The position numbers and the translations under genes were made by a program. Positions 25,222 through 26,461 of a DNA stretch of 36,585 nt are shown piece by piece. Origin of the DNA: a virus. Each line of letters begins with the position of its first letter. Within the stretch, counting starts at the first letter, position 1. The notes beneath the pieces are model-generated. The model saw only the letters and a program-made list of their open reading frames with translations. It made no database searches and had not been told where the DNA came from. Location: positions 1 through 36,585 of IMG/VR virus record IMGVR_UViG_3300035665_000131; one strand, written 5' to 3'.

Positions 25222-25452
25222 TCAGTCTTTTTTCGACGTAATTTCTTCGGTCAGGAAATCCATTATTTCCCTAGAAGCTAGTGCTATAGGAGAAATATCG
25301 ATCTTGTGCCTGGCGTCCCAAAGGAACACGGCGATGATATTAAAGTATACCTCGTCCGCACCTGGCCCGCTGTCATCAAGCCAGTATTCATAGTCGACAT
25401 AGAACTCTATGTCCTCCCAGTCAGGGATCTTAATGATGTCGTAGTCTAGCAT
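25222..25452 (-). CDS. Unknown acidic protein next to the methyltransferase
   Basis: A 76-residue acidic protein (MLDYDIIKIPDWEDIEFYVDY), overlapping the methyltransferase end by 23 bases. Alternating aromatic and acidic residues suggest a small beta-alpha fold. It may be a DNA mimic in principle (high D/E content), but no family is recognised and this is speculation. Confidence 0.7.
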   Translation of the reverse strand: MLDYDIIKIPDWEDIEFYVDYEYWLDDSGPGADEVYFNIIAVFLWDARHKIDISPIALASREIMDFLTEEITSKKD

Positions 25453-26461
25453 CTTCTATAGCCTTAAAGATTTGATATACAACTTGTGGCACTACGGCGT
25501 TTCCATATGCCTTTACTGACTCTTTTCTCCATTTTGGAAAGGTAATTCCGTCCAATTCACGGGGAAGCCCATCATCTCCGCCACAAACCGGGGATTCAGT
25601 TGGGAAGTGCTCCCAGTTCCCAACTTGATGAAATTGGGAAGCTGCCCATCGTGCTTCATCTTGTTCCCGTTCTCTCCTCTCAAATGCTCTAATGAGTTGG
25701 CCCCCTTGTAGTCCCTCGCTGCGGGTGTCGGTAGCATTCCGTTCGCTGCTAATTGCTTCAACGGAACTTGCAGCGCATCCCCGTGCTTCTCCTTCGCTCG
25801 TTGCCACGCCTCCGGGCTGCGCGGCGTGTTGTAGTCGAACATCGTCGGCGTTGGCAGCATCCCGTAAACTACCTGGCTCGCCAGACCGTTGTACTTCGTT
25901 CCATTCTTGTAGCCGTTGCGTTCGGCTCTCGCTCGCATCTTCTCTGGAGATTCTGCTCGGTCGGTAGTTGTTGGAGTTTGTAGCAACCCACCATATCCGA
26001 TCCCGTCGGTGGGGTGCGCCAACACCCGCAGCTGGAATGACGCCCGTCCATACTTCGTACCCCATAGCTTCCAAGTCAGCGCACACCTCCTCGAAGACCA
26101 CGCCCCCGTTCCAATTAAGGAGGCCGCGTACGTTTTCGCCCACAACGTAGGCCGGGGCAACCTCTGATATGATGCGACACATTTCGGGCCATAGGTGGCG
26201 TTCGTCGTCCTTTCCGAGTCGCTTTCCTGCGCTTGAGTAAGGCTGGCAGGGAAAGCCCCCGCTGAGGATGTCGACGGATCCTCTCCATTGGGTTCCATCG
26301 AATGTTTTGACGTCGTCATAGGATTTGGATTGGGGGAAGTGATACTGAAGCACGGATTGACAGAAGGAATCTTTTTCTACGTGGAAGACATTCGTCCATC
26401 CCATCCACTCGGCAGCGAGGTCAAAGCCTCCTATACCGCTAAATAATGATGCGTGATTCAT
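25430..26461 (-). CDS. DNA (cytosine-5) methyltransferase
   Basis: A 343-residue C5-MTase with the ordered motifs: I (LFSGIGGFD, residues 6-14), IV (GGFPCQPYSSAGKR, catalytic Cys72), VI (GENV, 108-111), VIII (APHRRDRIWWV, 149-159) and X (KAYGNAVVPQV near the C-terminus). Between motif VIII and the conserved TESPVCGGDDGLP segment lies a 110-residue hydrophilic, low-complexity stretch instead of a clear target recognition domain; this stretch lies opposite the strongest part of an overprinted gene. Expected role: protecting phage DNA from host restriction. Confidence 0.93.
   Translation of the reverse strand: MNHASLFSGIGGFDLAAEWMGWTNVFHVEKDSFCQSVLQYHFPQSKSYDDVKTFDGTQWRGSVDILSGGFPCQPYSSAGKRLGKDDERHLWPEMCRIISEVAPAYVVGENVRGLLNWNGGVVFEEVCADLEAMGYEVWTGVIPAAGVGAPHRRDRIWWVATNSNNYRPSRISREDASESRTQRLQEWNEVQRSGEPGSLRDAANADDVRLQHAAQPGGVATSEGEARGCAASSVEAISSERNATDTRSEGLQGGQLIRAFERREREQDEARWAASQFHQVGNWEHFPTESPVCGGDDGLPRELDGITFPKWRKESVKAYGNAVVPQVVYQIFKAIEDARLRHH
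25513..26319 (-). CDS. Overprinted methyltransferase-companion protein
   Basis: A 268-residue frame lying entirely inside the methyltransferase gene, same strand, shifted frame. It is not a random shadow: it has the signature of proteins that accompany C5 methyltransferases in phages and mobile elements, with SSRRCALTWKLWGTKYGR (75-92), three threonine-proline motifs LQTPT (113-117), LPTPT (155-159) and LPTPA (196-200), and the terminal LNPRFVAEMMGFPVNW (241-256). An ATG at 26319 starts it. Its function is unknown to me; a target-recognition or specificity subunit role for the methyltransferase is inference. Confidence 0.75.
   Translation of the reverse strand: MTTSKHSMEPNGEDPSTSSAGAFPASLTQAQESDSERTTNATYGPKCVASYQRLPRPTLWAKTYAASLIGTGAWSSRRCALTWKLWGTKYGRASFQLRVLAHPTDGIGYGGLLQTPTTTDRAESPEKMRARAERNGYKNGTKYNGLASQVVYGMLPTPTMFDYNTPRSPEAWQRAKEKHGDALQVPLKQLAANGMLPTPAARDYKGANSLEHLRGENGNKMKHDGQLPNFIKLGTGSTSQLNPRFVAEMMGFPVNWTELPFQNGEKSQ

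Follow-up and report, generated by a model that had tools for sequence, protein, structure and literature searches.

A cytosine methyltransferase gene of a tailed phage encloses a second reading frame that probably encodes its specificity subunit

Results

Two reading frames at one locus

The window analysed here is a virus sequence of 36,585 bases (IMG/VR record IMGVR_UViG_3300035665_000131, taken at full length), which is that of a tailed phage as judged by its terminase, portal and head protease genes. It carries a C5-cytosine methyltransferase gene at 25430-26461 (alpha, read in frame A; 343 amino acids from an ATG, with motifs I-VIII and X) and, sitting entirely within it in the +1 phase, a second open reading frame at 25513-26319 (beta, read in frame B; 268 amino acids from an ATG that coincides with A codon 48), the proposed specificity subunit; these and all other features of the locus given below lie on the minus strand. 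The coordinates bear out the initial annotation, which had described a gene fully overprinted, in another phase, inside a cytosine methyltransferase. No Shine-Dalgarno sequence was found upstream of the beta ATG of the 25513-26319 frame. Two tRNA genes (Rfam RF00005; 25116-25189 and 27144-27217, minus strand) flank the methyltransferase region.

Alpha is a C5-cytosine DNA methyltransferase by its match to PF00145 (2e-47) and by its motifs I, IV (PCQ), VI (ENV), VIII and X. In an alignment of 45 homologs its PCQ, ENV and RxR motifs are invariant, as are motif IV (GGFPCQP, 26240-26260, with the catalytic Cys72), residues of motif VIII (GAPHRRDR, 25997-26020) and G320, N321 and P325 of motif X (GNAVVPQ, 25484-25504, downstream of the beta stop). 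The protein matches phrog_363 over residues 1-338 (1e-75), and its nearest solved structure is M.HhaI (residues 4-161). The PF00145 match, however, covers residues 1-182 only; beyond it alpha is hydrophilic and variable, and then GDDGLPRELDGITF...AYGNAVVP (motif X) resumes. Neither a variable region with a target-recognition domain (TRD) nor motif IX was found within the alpha chain, where the middle of frame A is unconstrained and a motif-IX-like sequence is read in frame B instead.

Beta matches phrog_1008 ('DNA methyltransferase') over residues 17-262 (1.1e-22) and gave no match in Pfam, NCBIfam or PDB (sequence searches; PDB also by profile). It carries SSRRCALTWKLWGTKYGR, and the three L(P/Q)TP(T/A) motifs about 42 residues apart that had been noticed initially are indeed present, as LQTPT, LPTPT and LPTPA at residues 113, 155 and 196 (spacing 42 and 41), together with LNPRFVAEMMGFPVNW at residues 241-256. 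The motifs stand at the start of three cassettes. Cassette 1 (LQTPTTTDRAESPEKM..., residues 113-154, 25858-25983) is of type B, common to 12 loci; cassette 2 (LPTPTMFDYNTPRSPEAW..., residues 155-195, 25735-25857) falls into cluster A, with 90% nucleotide identity to the third cassette of locus L014; and cassette 3 (LPTPAARDYKGANSLEHL..., residues 196-236, 25612-25734) falls into cluster A as well, in a sub-type common to L034, L040 and L043.

Openness of the second frame

A scan of IMG/VR with frame B gave 80 loci. Frame B was in the +1 relation to frame A in 89 of the 92 loci having both matches, the exceptions being L001 (orientation uncorrected) and L073 and L078 (two copies). Openness was assessed on 45 distinct homologous loci (<97% identical), which span exactly 156 codons from the alpha start through motif VIII, and the number of stops expected was obtained by randomising the A codons synonymously, with the codon usage of the non-overlapping parts. 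As can be seen across A codons 52-156, the +1 frame had 0 stops versus ~242 expected, and across codons 2-50 it had 64 versus 75.5; in the +2 frame, used as a control, the stops equalled expectation along the whole length. Because short B motifs were used to recruit the loci, the choice of sample accounts in part for the open cassette region, but largely not for codons 52-105, where the +1 frame was open in 45/45 loci, with 2.9-8.6 expected. An ATG was present within A codons 44-59 in 44 of the 45 loci (29-33 expected). Frame B is thus kept stop-free from just past this ATG, as expected of a protein that initiates there. The openness of the second frame is not due to chance, and the overprint is real.

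Selection on the two frames

We compared pN/pS of the two frames pairwise (76 pairs; 44 pairs for the cassettes). The values are simple counts, each frame taken alone and the pairs non-independent, and the contrast between the frames far exceeds what these simplifications could yield. Over codons 2-38, which are read in frame A only, pN/pS of A was 0.16. Over codons 52-105 it was 0.24 for A versus 1.53 for B, and over codons 106-145 it was 0.30 versus 0.71, with pS of A dropping from 0.72 to 0.25. In the cassettes the relation was reversed, B having 0.17 and A 2.94, and in the motif IX block the values were 0.24 for B and 0.77 for A. Differences per site in the cassettes were 0.198, 0.122 and 0.449 at B positions 1, 2 and 3, and amino-acid identity there was 0.79 in B, 0.47 in A and 0.49 in the third frame. 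Within LNPRFVAEMMGFPVNW (25552-25599) the third positions of A are frozen and its first positions, which are position 3 of B, vary; for example, A reads L, I or V where B invariably reads F.

The claim that the second frame is real and conserved holds from near A codon 106, where B-frame conservation starts by per-position entropy (W, W.S.RC.LTWK). It does not extend to the first ~55 residues of B, over motifs IV-VI, which show no sign of amino-acid constraint in frame B. A doubly constrained stretch at 25994-26146, recognised by entropy, pS and pN/pS, holds alpha motifs VI-VIII and the beta N-domain (W..K.F...LIG...W.S.RCALTWK..GT...R..FQL). Each frame is under purifying selection in its own segment, and the constraint is handed over, resting on A as far as motif VIII, on B through the cassettes and motif IX, and again on A at motif X. 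Two further proposals of the initial annotation are supported, namely that the second frame takes over the constraint where the first is relieved of it, and that the methyltransferase frame beyond motif VIII is hydrophilic with no recognition domain of its own.

The assignment of LNPRFVAEMMGFPVNW to motif IX is based on its consensus and its position before motif X, and we regard it as the probable motif IX of the enzyme. In searches of the relatives with Pfam and NCBIfam profiles, run to confirm motif IX, the matches ended before it.

Cassettes of beta and their shuffling

Past the N-domain, B contains 1-5 cassettes of ~40 residues each, with LPTP or a variant at the start and with constant flanks. 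Clustering placed the 117 cassette modules, apart from singletons, in 19 recurring groups, and the order and number of modules differ among loci (L-I-Q in L048, D-L-Q in L049, I-H in L059 and D-I in L085). In one relative (L024) alpha is 84-87% identical to the 25430-26461 alpha on either side of the cassette region, yet this region has one single, different cassette. Judging by these comparisons, cassettes appear to have been independently gained, lost and reordered between contigs, and the swaps leave both frames open. These recurring, shuffled modules are candidate recognition domains.

Relatives with other layouts

The nested layout, with motif IX in B and motif X in A, prevails among the loci of both the B scan and a scan of bacterial genomes, mainly of Bacteroidota. 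Another 45 IMG/VR loci have a staggered layout, where alpha ends after motif VIII (median 186 amino acids) and a +1 beta, overlapping alpha by ~230 nt, holds the cassettes, IX and X; genes 82/81 of Mycobacterium phage Refuge resemble it. Actinophages L184, L186, L191, L232 and L239 have an alpha with IX and X and without cassettes, and a nested +1 ORF with 2-5 cassettes. The nested ORF of some actinophages has cassettes but not motif IX, so that the contribution of beta is not uniform, and in L097, L101 and L174 the cassettes are split between the two frames. Whatever the frame, the order of parts (I-VIII, cassettes, IX, X) is constant. Profile comparison of nested betas, such as that at 25513-26319, with those of the other layouts gave N-domain homology at probabilities of 96.6% and 93.5%, which taken by itself is a weak indication since the N-domain overlaps alpha.

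Beta was also found away from an intact overprint. In L073 and L078 (1444-1986 in each), an intact alpha/beta pair is followed by a second, free-standing beta of 181 amino acids with another cassette type; its own ATG lies immediately 3' of the alpha TAA, and the alpha frame there has stops at 1533, 1707 and 1980. In L144, L145, L146 and L147 (Bacteroides faecis and related genomes) the alpha frame is broken both within the cassette region and ahead of motif X, and the beta is intact (335-353 amino acids), an arrangement that is either a remnant or a differently split form. The free-standing beta and the intact betas with a broken alpha argue that beta is an independent protein and more than an overprint. 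Homologs of the second frame outside intact overprints, which the reality of the gene had been said to call for, thus exist as staggered ORFs and as a free-standing gene, and purifying selection in that frame, likewise called for, is present by per-frame pN/pS.

Some further observations concern individual phages. In seven actinophage loci (L097, L099, L100, L102, L104, L107 and L109) the first LPTP cassette of the alpha frame comes 8-11 nt after a +1 stop, which makes a regular junction between the frames. Public records L002 (PQ571277.1), L003 (PQ571269.1) and L006 (LC859274.1) annotate one frame, though both are open: alpha in the Bacteroides phages, and beta plus an alpha fragment in the Rhodococcus phage. 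Klebsiella phage BUCT541 (L096) has an enterobacterial C5-methyltransferase whose open +1 frame ends in RWLMGFPVEW; this seems to be the same overprint, with no clear LPTP arrays. Paenibacillus phage Diva gp49/gp50 have the same +1 nested layout and are annotated as two CDS ('g49 internal gene').

Discussion

In C5-methyltransferases the variable region lies between motifs VIII and IX and, together with motif IX, makes the small DNA-reading domain (PMC3404938). With the variable region and motif IX in beta and the remainder in alpha, the simplest mechanism is a complete enzyme reassembled from two polypeptides. We consider it likely, with good confidence, that the locus encodes a split C5-methyltransferase made of alpha (motifs I-VIII and X) and nested beta (target-recognition cassettes and motif IX), and that this enzyme is probably multispecific. 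That the second product is the recognition part of a two-subunit enzyme had been suggested at the outset, and it is the best reading of the sequences, to which the motif-IX-like end of beta, its modular variable cassettes and the relatives in which beta is separate or joined to motif X all point.

According to this mechanism, AdoMet binding, catalysis (through motifs I-VIII) and motif X would come from alpha, whose middle would be read-through of the other frame that the protein tolerates. Beta would initiate at its own ATG within alpha and supply a short N-domain, three target-recognition cassettes and motif IX, and the two would assemble into one active enzyme. In the alpha-beta complex on DNA, LNPRFVAEMMGFP may occupy the place of motif IX, with the cassettes in the major groove. 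Each cassette may address a separate target sequence, so that a change of cassette would lead to methylation of different sites, and methylation would protect the phage DNA against host restriction. Modelled by itself with AlphaFold2, beta reached no confident fold (pLDDT 54.6). In the predicted structure of a one-chain actinophage relative, the methyltransferase core and the IX-X end were confident, with an HhaI-like fold, and the cassette region had no confident structure (pLDDT ~35), so that a cassette is a putative TRD.

It is possible that the enzyme is split as proposed but that the cassettes jointly form one recognition surface for one target, as single-specificity split enzymes exist (M.AquI and M.EcoHK31I; PMC3404938). 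We regard this as rather unlikely, given that 1-5 discrete cassettes of ~40 residues are gained, lost and reordered independently, as in the tandem-TRD enzymes of Bacillus phages (PMC8936443).

The constant order of parts in any frame would also suit a single polypeptide made by programmed frameshifting, which would leave frame A after motif VIII, read the cassettes and IX in frame B and perhaps return for X; methyltransferases are, moreover, among the genes flagged in a paper predicting such events (PMC10885494). Frameshifting requires the product frame only downstream of the shift site, however, and B lacks stops from codon 52 on and shows constraint from codon 106 on, both points lying ahead of any place past motif VIII where a shift would be useful. 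In addition, an ATG stands just ahead of the stop-free stretch, a free-standing beta has its own ATG, and some actinophage alphas keep IX and X while the nested ORF has the cassettes. Frameshifting is therefore disfavoured, above all by the openness and constraint of B upstream of the shift site and by the free-standing beta, and we find it quite improbable.

Beta on its own has no recognised Pfam or PDB domain, and might be a real overprinted protein that acts outside the methyltransferase, for example in anti-restriction or regulation. This is highly improbable, as beta relatives adjoin alpha motifs I-VIII and either have motif X themselves or leave both it and motif IX to alpha, and as alpha here is without its own target-recognition region and motif IX. 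That the second frame is a passive by-product, left open and conserved by alpha motifs and codon usage, is barely conceivable and was rejected for this phage's family: although over A codons 52-105 the conservation of B does follow the alpha motifs, the stop depletion with a normal +2 control, the ATG and openness counts, the inverted codon-position pattern in the cassettes and motif IX, the per-frame pN/pS and the separate beta genes of relatives all contradict it.

The split methyltransferase proposed here has partial precedents. Beta of M.EcoHK31I is reportedly nested in another frame of the alpha gene, as the 25513-26319 ORF is inside 25430-26461 (+1). The large polypeptide of M.EcoHK31I has motifs I-VIII, X and a predicted TRD, and the small one has motif IX (PMC3404938); the 25430-26461 alpha likewise has I-VIII and X, with IX, by consensus and position only, in the second polypeptide. 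Unlike in M.EcoHK31I, the constrained variable cassettes are here in beta with IX, and they are multiple and shuffled where that enzyme has one specificity (YGGCCR); the likeness drawn here is one of motif content. M.AquI is split within the variable region, alpha having I-VIII and the second polypeptide the distal variable region, IX and X (PMC3404938). This is as in our staggered relatives and unlike 25430-26461, which encodes motif X in the alpha frame and encloses beta completely. Bacillus phage enzymes M.SPR, M.H2I and M.phiBssHII recognise several target sequences through tandem TRDs (PMC8936443). The array of ~40-residue cassettes resembles theirs in layout, but theirs are single chains in one frame and this array is in a nested second frame.

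The records consulted for phrog_1008 and Diva gp49/gp50 give annotation, without mechanism, selection analysis or cassette structure. Since a two-polypeptide C5-methyltransferase with motif IX in the small subunit is already known, and since an 'internal gene' is on record for one phage, the two-subunit idea is less new than it seemed; the novelty lies in a recognition part built of cassettes in an overprinted frame, in how widely it occurs and in a frame boundary that slides. In the open-access literature searched, which leaves out most subscription journals, there was no paper on this combination.

With belief and doubt about equally balanced, we propose that phage methyltransferases with a cassette-built, interchangeable specificity subunit overprinted on the catalytic one form a widespread class. 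One recombination would swap a module while keeping both frames open, the frame boundary would slide between lineages, and extra betas could serve one alpha, as do the exchangeable specificity subunits of Type I systems.

It is rare for a long overprint on one strand to show clear selection in both frames, and at this locus the sequence itself tells how the work is divided: one frame serves catalysis and the other recognition, with a sharp hand-over between them. If beta is the recognition subunit, many phage annotations of a 'DNA methyltransferase' and a 'hypothetical protein' would each describe half of a single enzyme, and an activity screen based on the annotated ORF alone would miss it. 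The shuffling of cassettes in two frames simultaneously poses an evolutionary question that can be tested directly, and it might yield programmable split methyltransferases.
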